This document shows, piece by piece, positions 728 through 62,804 of a DNA stretch of 64,000 bases. Position 1 is the stretch's first letter. Each line of letters starts with the position of its first letter. Made by a program: the position numbers and the translations under genes. The DNA lies in the NCBI RefSeq assembly GCF_900176205.1, contig NZ_LT859959.1, positions 7,367,001 to 7,431,000 of the forward strand, in the 5' to 3' direction. The notes beneath the pieces were generated by a model. The model did not search any database. It was not told the DNA's origin and saw only the letters and a program-made list of their open reading frames with translations. Source of the stretch: Bradyrhizobium sp. ORS 285. Its GTDB lineage: Bacteria > Pseudomonadota > Alphaproteobacteria > Rhizobiales > Xanthobacteraceae.

Positions 728-3700
728 ATGCGCGTCTTCACCGTTCCCATCTCCGCGCCGTTCCTGCGCAGCGTGATCGCGGCGCTGGTGGACGGCCGGC
801 TGGTCGACGGGTTCGCAGCCCGCAGCGATCCCGCCCGGCTCGCGACGGCAACGCTGTATCTGCCGACACGCCGCTCGCTCCGGGTCGCGCGCGAGATGTT
901 CCTGGATGAACTGAAGACCGATGCTGCGGTGCTGCCGCGCCTCGTCGCACTCGGCGACATCGACGAGGATGAACTCGCCTTTGCCGAGGATCGCGACGCG
1001 TTCCTCGGCCCCGCGCCGCTGGAGATTCCGGAGCGTCTCGACGATCTGCAGCGCCGGCTCACCTTGGCGCGGCTGGTCGCGGCCTGGGCGAAGACGCCGG
1101 TGTCGGCGCCGCTGGTGATCGGTGGTCCCGCCTCCACGCTGGCGCTCGCTGGTGACCTGGCGCGGCTGATCGACGACATGGTCACACGCGGCGTGTCCTG
1201 GGACGCGCTCGACGCGCTGGTGCCGGATCAGCTCGACAAATACTGGCAGTACTCGCTGGAGTTCCTGCGCATCGCGCGCACGGCGTGGCCGGCCTATCTG
1301 CAGGAGATCGAGCGGATCGAGCCGGCGGCGCGGCGGGATCTGCTGATATCAGCCGAAGCCGCGCGCCTCTCGGCGCATCCCGATGGCCCCGTGATCGCGG
1401 CGGGATCCACCGGCTCGATGCCGGCGACGGCGAAGTTCCTGCTCGCGGTCGCAAAGCTGCCGCATGGCGCGGTCGTGCTGCCGGGGCTCGACACCGATCT
1501 CGACGAAGCCGCATGGAGCTCGATCGGCGGCGCCAAGGATCGTTCCGGCCGCGTGATCACGCCGCCGGCGGTCAATCATCCGCAATATGCGATGCACCTG
1601 CTGCTCAAGCGCTTCGGCCTGGAGCGGCGCGACGTCGTTCGGCTCGTGCCGCCCGGCCGCGGCGGCCGCGAGGTGCTGATCTCGGAAGCGATGCGGCCAT
1701 CCGAGGCGACCGCCGTGTGGCACGAGCGGCTGCGCCAGTTCGACATCGCCGCCAATATCGCGGAGGCGATGGACAATCTCGCCGTCGTCGCCGCGCCCAA
1801 TCCCGAGATGGAAGCCTTGGCGATCGCGATCGCCATGCGCGAGGCGCGCCATGTCGGCAAGTCCGCCGCGCTGGTGACGCCGGACCGCGCGCTCGCGCGC
1901 CGCGTGATGGCCGCCCTGACGCGCTGGCATCTGACCTTCGATGATTCCGGTGGCGACGCGCTGCTGGAAACACCGGCCGGCGTCTTCGCTCGGCTCGCCG
2001 CGGAAGCCGCCGCGCGCGGTCTGGAGCCGCCCACCTTGCTGGCGCTGCTCAAGCATCCGCTGTGCCGACTCGGCCGCGCCGCCAACGGCTGGAAGCAAGC
2101 GATCGAGACGCTGGAGCTCGCCTTGCTTCGCGGCACCCGTCCGCAAGCCGGCACCAGCGGGCTCGCGCGCGACTTCGCGCGCTTCCGCGACGAGCACACC
2201 AAGCTGCACCAAGGCGAAGCGTCGTCGCTGCACCGCGCCGAACCGCGCGCGCGGCTCAAGCCTGAGCAGCTCGACCAGGCGGCCGCGCTGATCACTCAAC
2301 TGCAGACGGCGCTGGCACCGCTTGAAAATCTCGCCTCTCCGCGACCGCAGGATTTCGCCGAGCTGGCCGCGCGGCATCGCGAGGTGCTGATCGCGCTGTC
2401 GACCGACGATGTCGGCCTCACGACTGCGTTCACTGATCGTGATGGCTCCGCGCTGGCGCGCTGCTTCGATGATCTGCTCGCATCCGGCGAGCGCTGCGGC
2501 CTGATGGCGCCGCTGTCGGACTATCCGGACCTGTTCCATACCGCCTTCTCCGACCGCGCGGTGCGCCGCCCCGAGCGCCACGGCGCGCAGCTGCAGATCT
2601 ACGGCCCGCTCGAAGCGCGCTTGATGCAGGCCGACCGCATGATCATCGGCGGACTCGTCGAGGGCATCTGGCCGCCGGCGCCGCGCATCGATCCCTGGCT
2701 GAGCCGGCCGATGCGGCATCAGCTCGGCCTCGATCTGCCCGAGCGCCGCATCGGCCTCTCCGCGCACGACTTCGCGCAGCTGCTGGGGGCGCCCGAGGTG
2801 ATCCTGACCCACGCCGCGAAATCCGGCGGCGCGCCGGCCGTGGCCTCGCGCTTCCTGCATCGCCTCGAAGCCGTCGCCGGTGCCGAGCGGTGGAAGGCGG
2901 CGGAGGCACGCGGCGACACCTATGTCCGCTATGCCGAGGTGCTGGACCAGCCCCGCGAGGTGAAGCCGGTCGAGCAGCCAGCGCCGAAGCCACCGCTGGA
3001 GGCCCGGCCGCTGCGGATGTCGGTGACCGCGATCGAGGACTGGCTGCGCGATCCCTACACCATCTTCGCGCGATACATCCTGCGGCTCGATCCGCTCGAT
3101 CCCGTCGACATGCCGCTGTCGGCGGCCGATCGCGGCTCGGCGATCCACGAGGCGATCGGCGAGTTCACGCAGACCTTTGCCAAGGAGCTTCCGCTGCACC
3201 CGGCGCATGCACTGCGCGTCATCGGCGAGAAGCATTTTGCGCCGTTGATGGAGCGCCCCGAAGCGCGCGCGCTGTGGTGGCCGCGCTTCCAGCGCATCGC
3301 CGGCTGGTTTGCTGCGTGGGAGACCGCGCGGCGCGAGCAGATCGGGGCGATCACCGCCGAGATCCGCGGCGAGATCGGCATTCCATTGGGGCCGGACCGC
3401 ACGTTCATGCTGTCAGCGCGCGCCGACCGCATCGAGCAGCGCGCCGAGGGCACCTATGCCATCCTCGACTACAAGACCGGCCAGCCGCCGACGGCGAAGC
3501 AGGTGCGCATGGGCCTGTCGCCGCAGCTCACGCTCGAAGCCGCGATCCTGCGCGAGGGCGGCTTCGAGGGCATTCCGGCCGGCAGCCTGATCAGCCAGCT
3601 CGTCTACGTCAGGCTCTCCGGCAACAATCCGCCGGGCGAGGAGCGCATCCTCGAACTGAAGATCAACAAGAGCGACACGCCGCAGCATCCGGACCAGGCC

Positions 3701-3874
3701 GCGCAGGAGGCACGCAACAAGCTGGAAGAGCTGATCCGCAGCTTCGAGGACCCCAATCAGGGCTATACCTCGCTGAACCTGTCGATGTGGGCAAACCGCT
3801 ACGGCAGCTATGACGACCTCGCGCGCATCAAGGAATGGTCGGCCGCGGGCGGACTGGGGGTGGAGGGATGGTGA
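728..3874 (+). CDS. addB: Double-strand break repair protein AddB (alphaproteobacterial type)
   Basis: AddB is the second subunit of the AddAB helicase-nuclease, which resects double-strand breaks for RecA-dependent recombination (the RecBCD counterpart). At 1048 residues it has the usual length. The N-terminus (VFTVPISAPFLRSV, YLPTRRSLR) is typical of alpha AddB, which is not an active helicase. The C-terminal PD-(D/E)XK nuclease domain shows the DYKTGQ motif with Asp914 and Lys916. The four cysteines that hold the Fe-S staple in Bacillus AddB are not seen around the C-terminal nuclease. The ATG at 728 starts the conserved N-terminus. The stop at 3872-3874 overlaps the addA start, so the two subunits are co-translated. 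Confidence 0.96.
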   Translation: MRVFTVPISAPFLRSVIAALVDGRLVDGFAARSDPARLATATLYLPTRRSLRVAREMFLDELKTDAAVLPRLVALGDIDEDELAFAEDRDAFLGPAPLEIPERLDDLQRRLTLARLVAAWAKTPVSAPLVIGGPASTLALAGDLARLIDDMVTRGVSWDALDALVPDQLDKYWQYSLEFLRIARTAWPAYLQEIERIEPAARRDLLISAEAARLSAHPDGPVIAAGSTGSMPATAKFLLAVAKLPHGAVVLPGLDTDLDEAAWSSIGGAKDRSGRVITPPAVNHPQYAMHLLLKRFGLERRDVVRLVPPGRGGREVLISEAMRPSEATAVWHERLRQFDIAANIAEAMDNLAVVAAPNPEMEALAIAIAMREARHVGKSAALVTPDRALARRVMAALTRWHLTFDDSGGDALLETPAGVFARLAAEAAARGLEPPTLLALLKHPLCRLGRAANGWKQAIETLELALLRGTRPQAGTSGLARDFARFRDEHTKLHQGEASSLHRAEPRARLKPEQLDQAAALITQLQTALAPLENLASPRPQDFAELAARHREVLIALSTDDVGLTTAFTDRDGSALARCFDDLLASGERCGLMAPLSDYPDLFHTAFSDRAVRRPERHGAQLQIYGPLEARLMQADRMIIGGLVEGIWPPAPRIDPWLSRPMRHQLGLDLPERRIGLSAHDFAQLLGAPEVILTHAAKSGGAPAVASRFLHRLEAVAGAERWKAAEARGDTYVRYAEVLDQPREVKPVEQPAPKPPLEARPLRMSVTAIEDWLRDPYTIFARYILRLDPLDPVDMPLSAADRGSAIHEAIGEFTQTFAKELPLHPAHALRVIGEKHFAPLMERPEARALWWPRFQRIAGWFAAWETARREQIGAITAEIRGEIGIPLGPDRTFMLSARADRIEQRAEGTYAILDYKTGQPPTAKQVRMGLSPQLTLEAAILREGGFEGIPAGSLISQLVYVRLSGNNPPGEERILELKINKSDTPQHPDQAAQEARNKLEELIRSFEDPNQGYTSLNLSMWANRYGSYDDLARIKEWSAAGGLGVEGW

Positions 3875-6800
3875 AGGCGCCCCGCCCCATTCCGCAGGCC
3901 GTGCGCGACGCGCAGACGCGCGCGTCGAATCCGGCCGCGTCGGCTTTCGTGTCGGCCAATGCCGGCTCGGGCAAGACGCACGTGCTGGTGCAGCGCGTGA
4001 TCCGGCTGCTGCTCGATGGCGTGCCGCCGGAGAAGATCCTCTGCATCACCTTCACCAAGGCCGCCGCCGCCAACATGGCCGAGCGGGTGTTCTCGACGCT
4101 CGGCCATTGGGTCACGCTCGACGACGACGCGCTCGACAGCGCGATCAAGTCCACCGGCATTCTCACCTCCGACAAGAAGCTCCGCGCGTCGGCGCGAAAA
4201 CTGTTCGCCAGCGCGCTGGAGACGCCGGGCGGCTTGAAGGTGCAGACCATCCACGCGCTGTGCACGCGGCTGCTGCAACAGTTTCCGTTCGAGGCCAATG
4301 TGCCGGCGCGGTTCTCGGTGCTCGACGAGCGCGACCAGACCGAGATGATGGAGCGCGCCAATCTCAAGGTGCTGCTCGACGCGGCCCGCGCGCCGGACAG
4401 CGCGGTCGGCCGCGCGCTGCAGGTCGCGATGGCCAATGCCGCCGATTCCACCTTCAAGGAGGTCGTGCGCGAGGCCTGTCTCAGCCGTGATCACTTCATG
4501 GCCTGGACCGATGGCGCCGGCCGTGTCGAGGTCGCCGCGCAGCATCTCGGCGAGGTGCTCGGCATCGGCGCTGACGAGACGCTGGAGGCGATCGAGCGCG
4601 ACATTCTCGACGGCCCCAATCTGCCGCGCGCCGATTGGACCGAGATCGCCGGCCGGCTGGACGGCGGAGCCAAGACCGACCAGAAGCAGGCCGACCAGTT
4701 GCGCGCGGCGCTGGCGTTCTCGGGCAGCGATCAGGTCGATGAATATCTTCGCGTCTTCCTCACCGACGACAAGGAACCGCGCAAATCGGTGCTGACCAAG
4801 AAGTTCGCCGAGAACAATCCCGGCCTCGCCGGCCTGTTCGACGCGGAAGCGCGCCGGCTCGACCGCCTGATCGAGAAGCGCCGCGCGGCCGTCGTGCGCG
4901 ACCGCACCGAGGCGCTGCTCCAGATCGCGACCGCGGCGGCCGCGAATTATCGGCGGGAGAAGGAAGAGCGCGGGCTGCTCGACTATGACGACCTGATCGA
5001 CAAGACGCTGGTCATGCTGAACCGCGTCTCCGCCGGCTGGGTGCACTACAAGCTCGACCGCGGCGTCGACCACGTGCTGATCGACGAGGCACAGGACACA
5101 AGCCCGCGGCAGTGGGACATCGTTGCCCACATCATCGAGGAGTTCACGTCGGGCGCCGGCGCGCGCGACGGGCTGACGCGCACGATTTTCGCGGTCGGCG
5201 ACGAGAAACAGTCGATCTTCTCGTTCCAGGGCGCCGACCCGCATGAATTCGATGCGCGACGGCGCCAGTTGCAGAAGCGCTTCACCGACGCCGGCCTGCT
5301 GTTCGATCCGGTGTCGTTCACCTACTCGTTCCGCTCCGGGCCGACGGTGCTGCATGCCGTCGACCATGTCTTCCGCGAGCGCGAGGTCTATAGCAGCATC
5401 CATTCGCCTGATATCGGCTACCCCATCCACAACGCGCTGACCGACGCCGGGCCGAGCCTGGTCGAGCTGTGGTCATTGTGCGAGCGCGACGATCGCAAGG
5501 AGATCGAGGGCTGGCGCGCGCCGTTCGACGGCGTCTCAGTGACGAGCCCGGAGGTGAAGCTCTCTAGGCGCATCCAGGCGGAGATCAAGCGGCTGATCCG
5601 CGTGGGCACCATGACCGGCCATGACGGCGCGCGGCGGCGGCTGAGCTATGGCGACATGCTGATCCTGGTGCGCCGGCGCGGCAATGCGTTCGACGCCGTC
5701 ATCCAGGCGCTGAAGCACGCCAGCATTCCCGTGGCCGGCGCCGACCGTTTAAAACTGACCGAGCACATCGCGATCATCGATTTGATGAACCTCGCCGACG
5801 CGCTGCTGCTGCCGCAGGATGACCTCGCACTGGCGACGGCGCTGAAGAGCCCGCTGTTCGGCCTCGACGATGACGATCTGTTCAAGCTGGCCTGGAAGCG
5901 TCGCGGCAGCTTGCGCGAGGCGCTGAGTGCGCATGCCGCTGATGACCCACGACTACAAGCGGTCGTTCGGCGGCTGCAGCAATGCGAGCGTCGCGCGGCC
6001 GAGGACACGCCGTTCGCGTTCTACGCCTGGCTGCTCGGCGGCGGTGGCGGCCGGCGGCGCATCCTGGCGCGGCTCGGCCACGAGGCCAACGACGCGCTCG
6101 ATGAATTCCTGGAGCTGGCGCTGTCCTACGAGCGCAAGGCGCCGGCGTCGCTGCAGGGCTTCGTCGCCTGGCTGCGCGCTGCCGACACCGAGGTGAAGCG
6201 CGACATGGAGATCTCGCGCGACGAAGTGCGCGTGATGACCGTGCACGGCGCCAAGGGTCTCGAAGCGTCCGTGGTGTTCCTGGTCGATACGACCTCGTCG
6301 CCGGCGGATTCGCAGCGGCTGCGGCTGATCCACGTGCCGCATGGCGAGCGGGAGATCGTGGTCTGGGCCGGACGCAAGGCGGACGATCCGCAAGCGGTTG
6401 CGGCGGCGCGGGTGGCGATGCTCAAGGAGACCGAGGACGAATATCGCCGGCTGCTCTATGTCGCGATGACACGCGCTGCGGACCGTCTCGTCATCGGCGG
6501 CTGCATGCCGGGCAACATGAACAACGTCCGCGGCGGAAGCTGGTACGACTTGATGGCCCGCGGCCTCGATGCGGCGGGACTGCAGGTCGAGGTGATCGAG
6601 ACCGAGGACGGGCCGGTCAAGCGCTACGCGCGGGCCGAGGACATTGCCGAGACCGCGAAGGACGAAGCGCGGCAGTTGGTGGAGACAGCGGTCGAACTGC
6701 CGTCCTGGCTGCGCACGGCGGCGATCGAGGCGCCCGGCGAGGTTGCCGTGCTCCGCCCCTCCGATCCTTCCGCAGACGAGCGGCCGGTGCGATCAGGCGA

Positions 6801-7341
6801 ATCGCTCGCCGCGCGCAGTCTCGCGATGCAGCGCGGCACGCTGGTGCACCGCTTGCTGCAGTCGCTGCCCGATGTGCCGCCGGAGCGGCGGCAGGAAGCC
6901 GCGCTTCGCTATCTGCTGCGCAATGCCCCCGACTGGGTGGAGGACGAGCGAAACAGGCTCGCTGACGGCGTGCTCAATGTGATCGGCGACCCCCGCTTCG
7001 CGGCGGTGTTCGCGCCCGGCAGCCGGGCGGAGGTCTCCATCGTCGGCCGGCTCGCACTGGCCGCGCAGCCGGCGGCGCTGGTGTCCGGCCAGATCGACCG
7101 TCTGGTGGTCACCGAGGCCGAGGTGCTGATCGTCGACTTCAAGACCAACCAGCAGCCGCCCTCAGGGCTATCCGAAGTGCCCGAGGCCTATGTCCGCCAG
7201 CTCGCGCTGTACCGGGCCGTGCTCGGCCAGTTGTACCCCGGGCGGACCGTCCGGGCCGCGCTGCTCTGGACCGAAGCCCCTGAATTCATGGAGCTTCCAG
7301 CCTCCGCGCTGGACGCCATGCTGCCATCCCAGCACGACTGA
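3868..7341 (+). CDS. addA: Double-strand break repair helicase AddA
   Basis: AddA is the UvrD/Rep-type SF1A helicase subunit of AddAB with a second RecB-like nuclease domain. Walker A is ANAGSGKT at residues 30-37 and Walker B is LIDEAQDTSP with Asp406-Glu407. The late helicase motifs VMTVHGAKGLEA and RLLYVAMTRA are present. The nuclease motif DFKTNQ (Asp1090, Lys1092) is near the C-terminus. I chose the ATG at 3868, which gives MVKAPRPIPQ and overlaps the addB stop, over an in-frame ATG at 3835 that adds a glycine/arginine tail. A GTG at 3871 is also possible. Predicted length is 1157 residues, normal for the family. Confidence 0.95.
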   Translation: MVKAPRPIPQAVRDAQTRASNPAASAFVSANAGSGKTHVLVQRVIRLLLDGVPPEKILCITFTKAAAANMAERVFSTLGHWVTLDDDALDSAIKSTGILTSDKKLRASARKLFASALETPGGLKVQTIHALCTRLLQQFPFEANVPARFSVLDERDQTEMMERANLKVLLDAARAPDSAVGRALQVAMANAADSTFKEVVREACLSRDHFMAWTDGAGRVEVAAQHLGEVLGIGADETLEAIERDILDGPNLPRADWTEIAGRLDGGAKTDQKQADQLRAALAFSGSDQVDEYLRVFLTDDKEPRKSVLTKKFAENNPGLAGLFDAEARRLDRLIEKRRAAVVRDRTEALLQIATAAAANYRREKEERGLLDYDDLIDKTLVMLNRVSAGWVHYKLDRGVDHVLIDEAQDTSPRQWDIVAHIIEEFTSGAGARDGLTRTIFAVGDEKQSIFSFQGADPHEFDARRRQLQKRFTDAGLLFDPVSFTYSFRSGPTVLHAVDHVFREREVYSSIHSPDIGYPIHNALTDAGPSLVELWSLCERDDRKEIEGWRAPFDGVSVTSPEVKLSRRIQAEIKRLIRVGTMTGHDGARRRLSYGDMLILVRRRGNAFDAVIQALKHASIPVAGADRLKLTEHIAIIDLMNLADALLLPQDDLALATALKSPLFGLDDDDLFKLAWKRRGSLREALSAHAADDPRLQAVVRRLQQCERRAAEDTPFAFYAWLLGGGGGRRRILARLGHEANDALDEFLELALSYERKAPASLQGFVAWLRAADTEVKRDMEISRDEVRVMTVHGAKGLEASVVFLVDTTSSPADSQRLRLIHVPHGEREIVVWAGRKADDPQAVAAARVAMLKETEDEYRRLLYVAMTRAADRLVIGGCMPGNMNNVRGGSWYDLMARGLDAAGLQVEVIETEDGPVKRYARAEDIAETAKDEARQLVETAVELPSWLRTAAIEAPGEVAVLRPSDPSADERPVRSGESLAARSLAMQRGTLVHRLLQSLPDVPPERRQEAALRYLLRNAPDWVEDERNRLADGVLNVIGDPRFAAVFAPGSRAEVSIVGRLALAAQPAALVSGQIDRLVVTEAEVLIVDFKTNQQPPSGLSEVPEAYVRQLALYRAVLGQLYPGRTVRAALLWTEAPEFMELPASALDAMLPSQHD

Positions 7342-55752: not shown

Positions 55753-56292
55753 ATTCGCCGCCCTAATCGAGCCCCGCCCGCTGCCGTCAAAGACGGGCCG
55801 CGCACCAATGATGAGATTCGCAATGCGCAGATCCAGCTGATCGACGCCGAGGGCACCAATCGCGGCACGGTCGAGACCGTCGTCGCGATCAAGATGGCCA
55901 TCGAAGCAGGCATGGACCTGGTCGAGATTTCGCCGAACAATTCGCCTCCCGTCTGTAAGATCATGGACTACGGGAAGTACAAATATTCGGCGCAGAAGAA
56001 GGCCGCCGAGGCCCGCAAGAAGCAGAAGGTCGTCGAGATCAAGGAGATCAAGCTCCGTCCGATGATCGATGACCACGACTACGACGTGAAGATGCGGGCA
56101 ATGCAGCGCTTCTTCGAAGAGGGCGACAAGGTCAAGATCACCCTGCGCTATCGCGGCCGCGAAATGGCGCACCAGGAGATCGGCACCAAGCTGCTCGACA
56201 AGGTGAAGTCCGACGTGGCGGCGTTCGCCAAGGTCGAACAGGACGCCAAGTTCGAGGGCCGTCAGGTCGTCATGGTTCTGGCCCCGCGCTGA
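55753..56292 (+). CDS. infC: Translation initiation factor IF-3, ATT start
   Basis: IF-3 keeps ribosomal subunits apart and checks the start codon. The conserved N-terminus [22 protein letters not shown] follows an ATT codon at 55753, spaced 8 bases from GGAG; no ATG, GTG or TTG is near. An AUU start is the hallmark of infC, which is autoregulated because IF-3 discriminates against it. The 179-residue protein has both domains ([36 protein letters not shown]). A terminator follows at 56320-56347. Confidence 0.96.
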
Positions 56293-56319
56293 GAGGCGAG
56301 GGACCCCGCTTCAAACCGG

Positions 56320-56347
56320 GCCCGCCACGCGTTGGCGGGCTTTTCTC
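56320..56347 (+). terminator. Rho-independent terminator after infC
   Basis: GCCCGCCA and TGGCGGGC pair over a CGCGT loop and are followed by TTTT. It lies 28 bp after the infC stop, so rpmI-rplT must be transcribed from another promoter. Confidence 0.88.
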
Positions 56348-56357
56348 TTGAGAGAGC

Positions 56358-56726
56358 TCAGGACCGCGTCGCCTGCCACCGCCCGCTGCAGGTGCCGGAC
56401 GAGCCCTTGCCGCTCCAGCGGCCTAAGCCGGACGAGTCGCCCAGCCGCCCGTGACCGCTGGCTGAGGAGCCGCCCTGCGAGACCCGCACCGTGACGGCGC
56501 CGCCGCGGCCGACCGTGCCGGTGATGTTGGCGGAGCCGGCCGAGGTCACGCGGCCGCCGCTGATCTGCACCGGGAAGCTGTAGCCCTGGTCGCAGCTGCC
56601 GGCCTCGGTGATGATCAGGACGGTCCAGGGACCATCGAACCCGGCGGCGTGGGCCGGGGCGGAATGAGAGACGGCGGTCGCGGCCAGGACAGCGGCGACG
56701 GCAGCGGGACGGATGATGCGGACCAT
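56358..56726 (-). CDS. Small secreted hypothetical protein
   Basis: A 122-residue protein with a clear signal peptide (AAVAAVLAATAVSHSAPAHA) and a mature part rich in Gly and Ser. It has two cysteines (AGSCDQGYSF and GTCSGRWQA) and beta-strand-like repeats (ISGGRVTSAGSANITGTVGRGGAVTVRV). Similar small exported proteins are frequent in Bradyrhizobium; function unknown. It lies opposite to and between infC and rpmI, which are normally adjacent in an operon. The ATG at 56726 begins MVRIIRPAAV. Confidence 0.82.
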   Translation of the reverse strand: MVRIIRPAAVAAVLAATAVSHSAPAHAAGFDGPWTVLIITEAGSCDQGYSFPVQISGGRVTSAGSANITGTVGRGGAVTVRVSQGGSSASGHGRLGDSSGLGRWSGKGSSGTCSGRWQATRS

Positions 56727-56988
56727 GAGCGGACCCCGGCTGGTTAACGAAAGCTGATCATGGGTCGGAATAGCTGATTCCATGGTTCGACGTTGCCAAG
56801 TTCGATCGTCTCTGGCATAAGCGCGGCCTTCGTCGCCCGGCTGATCAAGGGCTGCCGTGGCGATGTCCCTGTGCGGGTGGATCCTCGTTTGGGTCCGAAA
56901 CCTGAGCACAACCAACGCTCTAACGAGCATTTTCGCCTGACGGCGCCGCTTTCGCGGGCGGCTTGCCGTTGGCATCAAGGAGAGCCAA

Positions 56989-57189
56989 ATGCCCAAGCTG
57001 AAGACCAAATCCGGCGCCAAAAAGCGCTTCAAGGTGACGGGGACCGGCAAGGTCATGCACGCTCAGCGCGGTAAGCGCCACGGCATGATCAAGCGGACCA
57101 AGAAGCAGATCCGGCAGCTGCGCGGCACCCGCGTGCTGTTCAAGACCGACGGCGACAACGTCAAGAAGTACTTCTTGCCGAACGCCTGA
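56989..57189 (+). CDS. rpmI: 50S ribosomal protein L35
   Basis: A 66-residue basic ribosomal protein: [22 protein letters not shown] and [18 protein letters not shown] are diagnostic of L35. A good AAGGAG site lies just upstream. It begins the rpmI-rplT pair; the 260-bp upstream gap to the secreted-protein gene must hold the promoter. Confidence 0.98.
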
Positions 57190-57260
57190 CCGGCCTCTCG
57201 CTTCCGAACCCGGCCGCGCACGGCGCGGCTCGTCATCACCTCTGAACAAGGATTTCCGTC

Positions 57261-57620
57261 ATGTCTCGCGTCAAACGCGGTGTGACCGCCCACGCCAAGC
57301 ACAAGAAGGTCTATAAGGCCGCCAAGGGTTTCTACGGCCGCCGCAAGAACACCATTCGCGCCGCCAAGGCCGCCGTCGAGAAGGCCGGCCAGTATGCGTT
57401 CCGCGATCGCAAGCGCAAGAAGCGCACCTTCCGCGCGCTCTGGATCCAGCGCCTGAACGCCGCCGTGCGTCCGTTCGAGCTCACCTACAGCCGATTTATC
57501 GACGGCCTGTCCAAGTCCGGCATCACCGTCGACCGCAAGGTGCTGTCGGATCTCGCGATCAACGAGCCCGCCGCGTTCGAGGCGATCGTTGTGAAGGCCA
57601 AGGCAGCGCTCGCCGCCTGA
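57261..57620 (+). CDS. rplT: 50S ribosomal protein L20
   Basis: A 119-residue ribosomal protein needed early in 50S assembly. [30 protein letters not shown] and the C-terminal [21 protein letters not shown] are typical. In many bacteria L20 represses its own operon by binding the mRNA leader; I did not find a clear mimic structure here. A terminator-like hairpin follows before pheS. Confidence 0.98.
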
Positions 57621-57649
57621 TCGCCTTCCGCATCGTGAGGACTTCAAAA

Positions 57650-57677
57650 GCGGCCGACGCTCTCGGCCGCTTTTTGC
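57650..57677 (+). terminator. Terminator or attenuator between rplT and pheS
   Basis: AGCGGCCGA and TCGGCCGCT pair over CGCTC and run into five T residues, 30 bp after the rplT stop. It would end the ribosomal-protein transcript or attenuate entry into pheS. Confidence 0.88.
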
Positions 57678-57763
57678 TGTCTTGTCACATCGCTGCTTTC
57701 GCTTGACCCCTGTCGCCGTCGCGGCGACAACCCAGCCGCCTTTGCCCCGCGGAGATCTTGCCC

Positions 57764-58846
57764 GTGTCCGACCTCGCCTCGCTCGAAACCTCGATCCTCG
57801 ACCAGATCGCCGCCGCCGGCGACGAAGCCGCGCTGGAAGCGGTGCGCGTCGCCGCCCTCGGCAAGAAGGGCTCGATCTCGGCGCTGCTCGCCACGCTCGG
57901 CAAGATGTCGCCGGACGAGCGCAAGACGCAAGGCGCCGCGATCAACCTCGCCAAGGACAAGGTCACGCAGGCGCTCTCCGCGCGCCGCGAGGTGCTGAAG
58001 GCCGCCGCGCTCGACGCGCGCCTCGCCGCCGAGACCATCGACGTCACCCTGCCCTTGCAGGATACGCCGGCCGACACCGGCCGCATCCATCCGCTCAGCC
58101 AGGTGATGGACGAACTGACCACGATCTTCGCCGACATGGGCTTCTCGATCGCCGAAGGCCCCGATGTCGAAACCGACGACTACAACTTCACCAAGCTGAA
58201 TTTCCCGGAAGGCCACCCCGCACGCGAGATGCACGACACCTTCTTCTTCAATCCGAAGGAGGACGGCTCGCGCATGCTGCTGCGGACCCACACCTCGCCG
58301 GTGCAGGTGCGCACGATGTTGACCCAGAAGCCGCCGATCCGCGTGATCTGCCCGGGCCGCACCTACCGCATCGATTCGGACGCGACCCACACGCCGCAAT
58401 TCCACCAGGTCGAGGGCCTCGTCATCGACAAGGGCTCGCATCTCGGCCACCTCAAATGGATCCTGCACGAGTTCTGCAAGGCGTTCTTCGAGGTCGACCA
58501 CATCAACATGAAATTCCGGCCGTCGTTCTTCCCGTTCACCGAGCCGTCGCTGGAAGTCGACATCCAGTGCCGCCGCGACAAGGGCGAGATCCGCTTCGGC
58601 GAGGGCGAGGACTGGCTGGAGATTCTCGGCTGCGGCATGGTGCATCCGAACGTCCTGCGCGCCTGCGGCATCGATCCCGACGAATATCAAGGCTTCGCCT
58701 GGGGCATGGGCATCGACCGCATCGCGATGCTGAAATACGGCATGAGCGATCTGCGCCAGCTGTTCGAAGGCGACGTCCGCTGGCTGTCGCATTACGGCTT
58801 CAAGCCGCTGGAGGTGCCGACCCTGGCGGGAGGATTGAGCACGTGA
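57764..58846 (+). CDS. pheS: Phenylalanine-tRNA ligase alpha subunit
   Basis: PheS carries the class II catalytic core of the heterotetrameric enzyme. The coiled-coil N-terminus is followed by motif 2 ([12 protein letters not shown] with RTHTSPVQ before it) and motif 3 ([13 protein letters not shown]). The 360-residue length is standard. The GTG at 57764 lies 9 bases after GGAG and gives [14 protein letters not shown]; a TTG at 57758 is too close to the site. Its operon partner pheT is separated from it by two accessory genes. Confidence 0.97.
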
Positions 58847-58862
58847 GCGAGAGGAGAGTTGG

Positions 58863-59156
58863 ATGAATCTCGATGACGTCAAGAGCCTCACGGAAAAGAC
58901 GCTGGCGGATCTGCTCGGCCAATACGGTTTCGACCACGTCGATCTGGTCCCCGGCAAGGATCATGACGATGAGGACGCGCTGTTTCTGACCGCAAACTAC
59001 CGGGGTGGATCGACCCTTCCGGGCGGAGACGTGCTCGTCGGAGCGCTCACGGCCTTGCGAACCACGCTGCAGAAATCGGGTGAAAGCCGGTTCCCGTATC
59101 TGACTCATCACGTCGAGGGCGAGGAGGAATACGAGGAAGAGGAAACCGGGGAATGA
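58863..59156 (+). CDS. Small acidic protein, candidate partner of the HEPN-like protein
   Basis: A 97-residue protein with no family I can name. It begins MNLDDVKSLTEKTLADLLGQYG, has a mixed alpha/beta middle (VDLVPGKDHDDEDALFLTANYRGG) and ends in an extremely acidic tail ([13 protein letters not shown]). It starts 16 bp after the pheS stop behind AGGAG. Its stop overlaps the next start (ATGA). A small acidic gene placed just before a HEPN gene fits an antitoxin, but that is inference from arrangement and charge. Confidence 0.8.
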   Translation: MNLDDVKSLTEKTLADLLGQYGFDHVDLVPGKDHDDEDALFLTANYRGGSTLPGGDVLVGALTALRTTLQKSGESRFPYLTHHVEGEEEYEEEETGE

Positions 59157-59626
59157 GCGTCGTCGAAGGCAGGTTGATCGAGGTTGCGCAAGACCTCTGT
59201 CGCCGGACCGGGCGTCGGCCCCGGGAGGCCTTCATGCGCCGCGCGGTGAGCACCGCTTACTATGCGATGTTTCATGCACTGTGCCGGCTTTGCGCCGATA
59301 CCTTGATCGGCGGCACGCATTCGAAGAGTGATGCCTGGAGCCGTGTTTATCGCGGACTGAGCCACACGAGCACCAAGAAGACGCTTACGAACCAAAAAGA
59401 TCTCGCGGATCTCCCGTCTGCCGTCGCCAGCTACGGTGTCGTCTTCGCTCTTCTGCAGCAGGAGCGCGAGACCGCAGACTATGATCCTGCGCCATTTCGG
59501 CGATATTTCGTCGAGACGGAAACCCTGGTCAACCAGGCCTCCAGCGCAATTGCTGACCTCGGTCGTCTCGATGATGAGAACCGGAGAAAACTGGCAGCGA
59601 TGCTGCTCATAAGGGCTCGACAATGA
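59153..59626 (+). CDS. HEPN-like domain protein
   Basis: A 157-residue helical protein. [26 protein letters not shown] is the helix pair typical of HEPN/UPF0332-type proteins, many of which are toxin RNases. A candidate RX4-6H catalytic motif is R64-VYRGLS-H71 in [11 protein letters not shown]. It is joined to the preceding acidic gene and to pheT by 4-base ATGA overlaps at both ends, so it is translated within the pheS-pheT message. Activity is not established; a housekeeping or domesticated role is equally possible. Confidence 0.82.
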
Positions 59627-62031
59627 AATTCACGCTGTCCTGGCTGAAGGACCATCTCGACACCGATGAGCCGGTGGAGAAGCTCGCCGACAAGCTCACC
59701 ATGATCGGCCTCGAGGTCGAGCATCTCGAGGACAAGGCGAAGCTGCTCGCGCCGTATAAAATCGCGCGCGTCGTCTCCGCCGAGCAGCATCCCAACGCGG
59801 ACCGGCTGCGCGTCTGCATGGTCGACACCGGCGACGGTGGCGCACCGGTGCAGGTCGTGTGCGGGGCGCCGAATGCGCGCGCGGGGCTGGTGTCGGTGTT
59901 CTCGCCGCCGGGCACCTACATTCCCGGCAAGAACATTACGCTGTCGGTCGGCACGATCAGAGGCGTCGAGAGTCGCGGCATGCTGTGCTCGGCGGCCGAG
60001 CTGCAGATCTCGGACGATCACGACGGCATCATGGAGCTGCCGGCGGATGCGCCGATCGGCAACCCCTATGCGGAATGGGCCGGGCTCGGCGATCCCCAGT
60101 TCGAGATCAATCTGACGCCGAACCGTCAGGACTGCACCGGCGTGCACGGCATCGCGCGCGACCTCGCCGCCGCCGACATGGGCAAGCTCAAGGACCCCGG
60201 CGTCAAGCCGATCAAGGGCGAATTCCCCTGCCCCGTAAAGGTCGCGGTGGAAGATGACAAGCTGTGTCCGGGCTTCGCGCTGCGGCTGGTGCGCGGCGTC
60301 AAGAACGGCCCGTCGCCGAAATGGCTGCAGCAGCGCCTGACCTCGATCGGACTGCGTCCGATCAATGCGCTGGTCGACATCACCAACTACATGACCTTCG
60401 ACCGCGCGCGTCCGCTGCACGTGTTCGACGCCAAGAAGGTCAAGGGCAATCTGGTCGTCCGCCGCGCGCGCGATGGCGAGACCCTGCTCGCGCTCGACGG
60501 CCGCACCTACACGCTCGACCCGTCGATGTGCATCATCGCCGACGATGCCGGCGTCGAATCGCTCGCCGGCATCATGGGCGGCGAGGCTTCGGGCTGCGAC
60601 GCTGATACCACCGACGTGCTGATCGAATCGGCGCTGTGGAACGAGATCAACATCGCCCAGACCGGCCGCAAGCTCGGCATCAATTCCGACGCGCGCTATC
60701 GGTTCGAGCGTGGCGTCGATCCGGCGTTCATGGTGCCGGGCCTGGAGATGGCGACCAAGCTGGTGCTCGAGCTCTGCGGCGGCACGCCGTCGGAGAACGT
60801 CATCGTCGGCAACGCCTATGGCGACGACCGCATCATCGACTTTCCGATCTCCGAGGTGAAGCGCCTCGCCGGCATCGAGGTGCCCTTCCCGGAGATGCGG
60901 CGGATCCTGACCCATCTCGGCTTCACGCTGGCCGGCACCGGCTCGGTCATGAAGGTCGCGGTGCCCTCATGGCGCAGCGACGTCCATGGCAAGGCCGACA
61001 TCGTCGAGGAAATCGTTCGCATCGTCGGCGTCGACAAGGTGCCGATGACGCCGTTCGAGCGTGGCGATGCGCCGCGCAAGCCGGTGCTGACGCCGCTGCA
61101 GCTGCGGACCCGCCGCGCCAAGCGTGCGCTGGCGGCGCGCGGCATGGTCGAGGCCGTCACCTGGTCGTTCATCTCCAAGCCGGCGGCGGAATTGTTCGGT
61201 GGCGGCAAGACGGAGCTCGCGCTCGCCAACCCGATTGCATCGGATCTCTCCGACATGCGTCCCAGCCTGCTGCCGGGCCTGATCGCGACCGTGCAGGCCA
61301 ACGCAGATCGCGGCTTCGGCGACGCCGCGATCTTCGAGGTCGGCCAGATCTTCAAGGGCGACCGCCCGGAGGATCAGTTCGTCGCTGCGAGCGGCATCCG
61401 CCGCGGCATCGCGTCGTCGAAGGGTCTCGGCCGGCATTGGACCGGCTCGCAACCGGCGAACGCGTATGACGCCAAGGCCGATGCGCTCGCGGTGCTCGCG
61501 GCCGCCGGCGCGCCGATGGCATCGCTGCAGATCGTCAGCGGCGGTCCGGCCTGGATGCATCCGGGTCGCTCCGGCACGATCCAGATGGGACCGCAGAACG
61601 TGCTCGGACATTTCGGCGAGTTGCATCCGCGCACGCTGGAGGCGCTGAAGGCTGACGGTCCGCTGGTCGCGTTCGAGGTCATCCTCGACCGTATTCCCGC
61701 CGCGAAGGCCAAGCCGACCCGCGCCAAGCCGGTGCTGGAGCTCTCGGCGTTCCAGCCGGTGTCGCGCGACTTCGCCTTCATCGTCGATCGCAAGGTCAAG
61801 GCCGGCGATATCGTGAAGGCGGCGCAGGGCGTCGACAAGAAGCTGATCAGCGACGTCACTGTGTTCGACATCTATGAGGGCAAGGGCATCGAGGACGGCA
61901 AGAAGTCGGTCGCGATCGCCGTCACCCTCCAGCCGCGCGACAAGACCATGACGGACGAGGAAATCGACGCCGTCGCGGCGAAGATCACCGCGGAGGTGGC
62001 TAAGAAGACCGGCGGCACGCTGCGCGGATGA
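59623..62031 (+). CDS. pheT: Phenylalanine-tRNA ligase beta subunit
   Basis: An 802-residue PheT. The N-terminal tRNA-binding EMAP-like domain ([30 protein letters not shown]) is followed by B3/B4 editing domains ([36 protein letters not shown]), B5, and a C-terminal ferredoxin-like anticodon domain ([16 protein letters not shown]). It edits Tyr-tRNAPhe and completes PheRS. Its ATG overlaps the HEPN gene stop, and its own stop overlaps the next permease start. Confidence 0.97.
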
Positions 62032-62804
62032 GCCTCTCCGGGCTCATCCCTGCTGATCTCACCTTGTTCGCAACGATGGCGCTGGCCATCGTCGCCTTCA
62101 TCGCCGCGACCGCGCGCGGCTTCTCCGGCTTCGGCGCGGCGCTGATCTTCATGCCGCTGGCGAGCAGCTTCGCGGCACCGCGCCTCGTCGCGCCGCTGCT
62201 GCTGGTGATCGACTTCGTGGCGATGGCGCCGACGGTGCCCAACGCTTGGCGCAACGCCGACCGCAAGGCGACGGCCGTGATCGTCGCCGGCGCACTGGTC
62301 GGCGTGCCGCTCGGCACCTATTTTCTCACCCGGCTCGATCCGGTGACGGTGCGCTGGATCATCACGGGCTTCGTCATCGCACTGCTGGCGCTGCTGATCT
62401 CGGGCTGGCGCTATCGCGGCAGGGAGTACACGGCTTTGTCGGTCGCCGTCGGCGCGGTCTCGGGCTTCTGCAGCGGCGTGGCGCAGACCGGCGGGCCGCC
62501 CATCGTCGGCTATTGGCTGGGACGGCCGGTTCCGTCGAAGATGGCGCGCGCGAACATCGTGCTGTTCTTCGGGGCGTCGGACTGCTTCGCGATGGTCAGC
62601 TACGCCGCCAGCAGCCTGATCACCTGGGACTCGCTCAAGCTCTCCTTGCTCATTGGCCCGGTGTATGCGGTCGGCGTCGCTTGCGGCGCCTCACTATTCG
62701 GCCGCGCCAGCGAGCGCGTGTTCCGCATCATCTGCTACGCGCTGATTGCCATCGCTGTCATCTTCGGACTCCCGGCTCTCGACGGCGTGCTCGGCCGGGG
62801 CTAG
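62028..62804 (+). CDS. TauE/SafE family sulfite exporter
   Basis: A 258-residue membrane protein of about eight segments. [20 protein letters not shown] and [20 protein letters not shown] are the two half-repeats typical of TauE/SafE (DUF81). Substrates include sulfite, sulfoacetate and other small anions; which one here is unknown. The ATG at 62028 overlaps the pheT stop (ATGA), so it is the last gene of the coupled pheS-to-permease series. Confidence 0.92.

Follow-up and report, generated by a model that had tools for sequence, protein, structure and literature searches.

Why should two small genes stand between pheS and pheT, the genes for the two subunits of phenylalanyl-tRNA synthetase (PheRS)? 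The question is raised by positions 58,863 to 59,626 of the 64,000-nucleotide stretch of DNA analysed here (the window: positions 7,367,001 to 7,431,000, forward strand, of contig NZ_LT859959.1, Bradyrhizobium sp. ORS 285, RefSeq assembly GCF_900176205.1), where a sequence-only reading had noticed genes for an acidic protein and a HEPN-like protein, joined to each other and to pheT by 4-base ATGA overlaps. Open reading frame (ORF) coordinates bear out both this layout and the acidic end of the first protein, whose gene, here called the partner gene, begins 16 bases past the pheS stop. We lean towards reading the two genes as one toxin-antitoxin-type module in a pheS-pheT cassette site, because this fits the parts themselves, the gene order, the plasmid positions of relatives, the invariant polar residues and the signs of selection.

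A conserved pair under selection

The pairing seen at this one locus proved to be real and widespread, with the two-gene order kept in 93 of 100 loci, a count that includes near-copies and rests on a partner profile iterated on the same loci. Homology searches returned 102 relatives of the HEPN-like protein and 12 of the partner besides itself. The arrangement, a conserved two-gene operon with the small partner upstream, is that of type II-like toxin-antitoxin systems. Ratios of nonsynonymous to synonymous substitution rates (dN/dS) are low in two pairs of loci: 0.13 for the partner and 0.14 for the HEPN gene in L019/L020, and 0.10 and 0.06 in L092/L097 (dS above 1); a third pair, L021/L022, gave 0.30 and 0.50 and is too close to use (dS 0.03 or less).

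Addiction modules commonly sit next to plasmid maintenance genes, and the pair does so on two Rhizobium plasmids, where repABC precedes it and a ParB-family gene follows it; of the 36 plasmid records with a relative of this Rhizobium copy, 33 are from Rhizobium. On an Acidisoma plasmid, rep, ParA and integrase genes lie in the vicinity of a HEPN relative whose upstream end is overlapped by a small annotated gene. The genome of ORS 285 itself holds a paralogous partner-HEPN pair 665 kb off (L200, G000:C1:6754600-6768000, HEPN ORF 6456-6974), flanked, as judged by eye, by hydrolase-like and TetR-like genes, and two Dehalococcoidia loci (L068 and L078) have three copies of the pair each.

A HEPN fold and a putative alternative active site

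That the second gene encodes a HEPN protein is upheld by its predicted structure, which has the helical fold of the superfamily, and by matches to PF05168 in 18 of 94 relatives (E <= 0.01; best E 2.1e-5). The RX6H RNase motif proposed at R64-H71 fared less well. H71 is invariant, but R64 is not conserved, being arginine in 14 of 103 aligned rows and in 41 of the 94 rows of alignment A3; this is the outcome that the sequence-only reading itself had named as speaking against the motif, and R64-H71 is therefore rejected as a catalytic RX6H. Across the 103 rows Y36, Y37, Y66, R67, H71 and Y110 are invariant, R105 is kept in 102 and D109 in 101, and in A3 H71, R105, D109 and Y110 are all invariant. 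At R105-xxx-D109 the histidine of a canonical Rx4-6H is replaced by aspartate in 101 of 103 rows, and in the profile alignment R105-xxx-D109-Y110 falls on R-xxx-D-Y of AF0298, within a second stretch that is weak.

Could such a protein be an RNase? According to Anantharaman et al. 2013 (PMC3710099), Rx4-6H is the mark of the classical RNase HEPNs and not of the whole superfamily; in AbiV and in HEPN-T proteins of the AF0298 type its histidine is typically absent, several HEPN-T proteins having aspartate instead, and a second, strongly conserved and more N-terminal histidine could make an alternative active site. The same pattern is found here, with R105 retained, D109 in place of the histidine and H71 conserved nearer the N-terminus, and H71 together with R105 would, judged from the alignments, fit the alternative active site of the AF0298-type HEPN-T proteins.

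A possibly KH-like partner

The model of the partner has the order alpha-beta-beta-alpha-beta and may resemble a type II KH domain, although only 2 of the 77 family members have the GXXG of such domains in the loop that leads into the second helix. No nucleotidyltransferase family is found in the partner of the window, and one of the 77 members matches DUF294 (E 0.089). Acidity is best conserved in a hairpin, with D33 in 66 of 77 members and D or E at position 37 in 71. The acidic tail, in which the predicted local distance difference test score falls below 50 at residues 91-97, was considered as a hallmark of the whole partner family and rejected, since it goes with the copies at pheST: the net charge of the last 20 residues has a median of -6 at pheST (n=17) versus -1 elsewhere (n=85), with a p-value (1.6e-6) that is not independent evidence because the rows are related.

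The pheS-pheT junction as a cassette site

Is an insertion in pheST unusual, as the sequence-only reading had it? In this genus it is not. Our survey covered 79 of 265 same-genus genomes (the 30 best pheT matches, 9 from an order search and 40 picked down the list), and 55 of the 77 complete junctions hold an insert: 34 have DUF559, 14 ASCH, 5 both, 1 the HEPN pair (the window) and 1 an unassigned insert, the other 22 being of 150 bases or less. Across the genus this junction (58847-59622 in the window; also L099-L128 and L201-L240) is a site for cassettes, with DUF559, ASCH, both or the HEPN pair in it, or else a short gap. In 45 of the 55 longer junctions, an ORF of 60 or more codons overlaps pheT by 4 bases; because pheT starts ATGAAA, the ATGA is given by the sequence and the overlap needs just an open frame. 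The window DNA aligns with its nearest relatives up to the pheS stop (58846-58849) and again from the pheT start, not between; in the nine nearest relatives by pheT that we examined, the junction holds ASCH or DUF559 or is a short gap. HEPN matches occur in 15 of the other 264 same-genus genomes, none of them close (best E 5.9e-30 at 40%), and no pheS or pheT lies within about 1.5 kb of those loci. Several DUF559 cassettes (L100, L103, L104, L110 and others) end in the repeated peptides PLPLAGEGWGGG and APTLTLPRKRER; these ends look like translated intergenic repeat, perhaps a trace of how the cassettes move.

Outside the genus we sampled 58 loci with 52 complete junctions, a selected set in which best-scoring rows favour joined genes and fetched rows favour separate ones. 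There, 32 junctions are short, 4 hold DUF559, 3 ASCH and 3 the HEPN pair, one of which (L187, from the same genome as L038, discussed below) also matches DUF559; the 10 other inserts include DUF4160 with DUF2442, GIY-YIG, ABM and DUF2283. The DUF4160 and DUF2442 genes form a pair inside the pheS-pheT junction of L169 (G315).

Two other readings bear on this mixture of cassettes. The pair could be a passive passenger, an inactive or regulatory HEPN protein with a non-toxic role in RNA binding or processing, and one of many neutral inserts in a tolerant junction. The junction does host genes that are not obviously of toxin type (DUF2283, an ABM monooxygenase, an exonuclease weakly similar to Rv2179c and, in L180, what looks by eye like a glycosyltransferase), and the canonical Rx4-6H is missing; against this, R67, H71, R105, D109 and Y110 are invariant or nearly so, dN/dS is low in two pairs of loci and the pair adjoins plasmid maintenance genes, and we think a passenger unlikely. 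Alternatively, the junction may be a small defence hot spot, in which the HEPN RNase would be freed on infection and abort it. Antiphage systems employ HEPN proteins, AbiV among them (PDB 9bj6 and 9bj7, by their titles; PMC3710099), the junction holds nuclease-like genes (DUF559, GIY-YIG), and the core defence hot spot cDHS1 of P. aeruginosa lies in the pheS-pheT-ihfA neighbourhood, according to PMC10250203. On the other side, the PADLOC match is weak (PDC-S65, E 0.003), no relative occurs in 50,697 phage records (E <= 1e-5) and none was confirmed in viral contigs. Phage defence is a possibility to which we give something under a one-in-three chance. A phage origin of the pair was rejected: phrog_5176 (unknown function) matches at 9.4e-10, yet no phage record and, among 6 pattern matches, no confirmed viral contig carries a relative.

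Descent and possible transfer of the pheST copies

The HEPN search of genome contigs gave 174 confirmed loci, of which 80 were kept, and in 14 of these the HEPN gene adjoins pheT. Among 15 copies at pheST the partner starts 9-79 bases past the pheS stop (14 measurable), and in 9 copies a 4-base overlap joins partner and HEPN gene. Relative to the pheT start, the HEPN stop ranges from a 4-base overlap, seen in 3 copies, to a gap of 26 bases. On the HEPN tree, 19 pheST rows (15 rows of the 14 loci, the window, L132 of Methylobacterium and the survey loci L164 and L178) are set apart from all others by a single branch (support 85 in a quick tree); because 80 of 174 loci were kept, this statement refers to the kept loci together with the same-genus, plasmid and survey loci. 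The pheST location changes once on this tree, compared with a mean of 17.6 changes after shuffling, and none of 500 shuffles was as low. Matches with fewer than about 110 aligned residues were kept out of the tree, as were L130 and L187; L027 and the second Blastochloris copy stand on long branches. L132 (NZ_LR743510.1, Methylobacterium bullatum 'plasmid 1') is classed as a plasmid; the record is 2.8 Mb long and carries pheS, the HEPN pair and pheT, so it is probably chromosomal sequence.

Does this grouping mean that the pheST copies serve PheRS? A functional link is possible, and the clade might be tied to the synthetase or to tRNA-Phe, for example by cutting tRNA-Phe or by sensing the supply of PheRS. 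The one-sided position of the 19 rows, two of which, L164 and L178, were contributed by the junction survey rather than the HEPN search, and the more acidic ends of the pheST partners are in keeping with such a guard. However, a single insertion followed by transfer through the conserved pheS and pheT flanks can explain the same clade and its stay at pheST with no functional tie, unrelated cassettes occupy the same junction, and the acidic tails may reflect shared descent only; we hold a PheRS guard to be quite improbable.

The HEPN and pheT trees conflict. The HEPN tree places the window with L019, from Rhodoplanes, and L020, from a strain that bears the label Rhodovulum (support 98/96), whereas the pheT tree (15 rows, without L029, L164 and L178) places it with Nitrobacter (100/100), its nearest named pheT relative being Nitrobacter winogradskyi (81% over 801 columns). 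Constraining the window with Nitrobacter on the HEPN data was rejected (p 1e-31), as was constraining the window with L019, L020, L021 and L022 on the pheT data (p 2e-6). This conflict implies either that the module keeps its address while switching hosts or that old alleles sorted differently. L020 ('Rhodovulum sp. PH10') falls with Rhodoplanes in both trees, and its genus label is probably wrong.

One locus holds two HEPN pairs in a single pheS-pheT junction (L038 of Blastochloris sulfoviridis, 2314-4756). The stretch between the pairs contains a 179-residue ORF that by eye seems membrane-bound, a remnant resembling DUF559 and a second pheS end of 172 bases, which precedes the second module and is 86.6% identical to the pheS of its own genome and 85.4% identical to that of another genome, L197. 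The piece could be the leftover of recombination through the pheS end, or of a local duplication.

A proposed mechanism and the points against it

For a toxin-antitoxin-type module we propose the following course. On entering this lineage, the module would have displaced a junction that was short or held ASCH or DUF559, and recombination within pheS and pheT on either side would be the simplest route. The pair would be transcribed by read-through from pheS and coupled to pheT in translation, the KH-like upstream protein acting as antitoxin or control subunit and the HEPN-T protein as an RNase toxin in which H71 with R105 replaces the canonical Rx4-6H. If infection or stress halted protein production from the pheST mRNA, the partner would be the first to decay, leaving the RNase to attack host RNA; the module may be retained since its loss would free the toxin or upset pheT translation.

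Several observations weigh against this reading. The HEPN protein of the window matches no Pfam HEPN family, PF05168 included, and no NCBIfam entry; with Foldseek alone its model gave no match at E <= 0.001 (best 2hsb, E 0.08), and the weak PADLOC match counts here as well. HEPN proteins without catalysis exist. The partner was not recognised as a member of any known antitoxin family, toxicity and neutralisation are themselves predictions, and the partner was not found in 4 and not adjacent in 3 of the 100 loci. Between the window and L019 the partner is less constrained (dN/dS 0.33), the HEPN dS being saturated. The ATGA at pheT is already dictated by pheT's own first bases, and in L122 the ORF overlapping pheT is not the ASCH gene, so the overlapping frame is not always the cassette gene. 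Finally, comparison with the nine relatives showed no drop in identity beside the insert that would mark a donor flank in pheS or pheT.

The features of the insert are collected in Table 1. A scan of positions 57600-59700 found one terminator-like site, on the minus strand (1.6 in shuffled sequence), and no promoter-like site (0.2 in shuffled sequence), and positions 56000-62500 gave no Rfam match at gathering scores.

Table 1. Features of the pheS-pheT insert, in window positions.
Feature	Position	Strand	Remark
pheS	57758..58846	+	left flank of cassette; start codon provisional; tblastn to relatives
Partner gene, 97 aa, ATG start	58863..59156	+	predicted antitoxin-like
Acidic hairpin DHDDED of partner, residues 33-38	58959..58976	+	best conserved acidic stretch in partner family
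Acidic C-terminal tail of partner, residues 87-97	59121..59153	+	
ATGA overlap, partner stop / HEPN start	59153..59156	+	
HEPN-T-type protein, 157 aa	59153..59626	+	predicted RNase toxin-like
R64-H71 (RVYRGLSH), first proposed as RX6H	59342..59365	+	R64 variable; Y66, R67, H71 invariant in 103 rows
R105-xxx-D109-Y110	59465..59482	+	taken as canonical Rx4-6H position, D for H; alignment to 2hsb, PMC3710099
ATGA overlap, HEPN stop / pheT start	59623..59626	+	
pheT	59623..62031	+	right flank of cassette

Known systems and significance

How does the pair compare with systems already described? The HEPN-T proteins of the AF0298 type (PF05168, UPF0332; PMC3710099) share its pattern of residues, whereas the window protein has no PF05168 match and its own partner is not a nucleotidyltransferase by family. 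The last point excludes membership in HEPN-MNT (HepT-MntA), the type VII toxin-antitoxin systems (type as named in PMC11586414), from which the pair also differs in lacking Rx4-6H and in the small alpha-beta-beta-alpha-beta model of its partner. To AbiV, a HEPN RNase that acts against phage as part of a two-component system (PDB 9bj6, by its title), the pair is likened by the HEPN protein alone, and the fold match is weak. The partner, which has no GXXG, may resemble type II KH domains (ribosomal protein S3, Era). Like the window site, cDHS1 has variable genes in the pheST neighbourhood; its flanks are ihfA and a MerR gene (PMC10250203), and it therefore does not lie between pheS and pheT. In the open literature, subscription journals being largely outside the search, we found no paper on inserts between pheS and pheT, no account of a HEPN protein with a KH antitoxin and none of a new HEPN pair of this kind.

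In a bolder scenario, to which we attach very little confidence, the pheST clade would guard the translation machinery: translation of the pheST mRNA would set the balance between a KH-like antitoxin with an acidic tail and a HEPN RNase with an alternative site, an attack on PheRS synthesis or translation would free the RNase, and the junction in these Alphaproteobacteria would represent a new class of defence cassette site embedded in an operon. Our analysis adds a HEPN module with a type of partner not found in the open literature searched, and indicates that small, tightly packed cassettes can be swapped into the junction between the two genes of an essential operon. Two questions follow: do toxin-type modules gain from being coupled to an essential gene, and does a HEPN protein with this alternative site cut tRNA?
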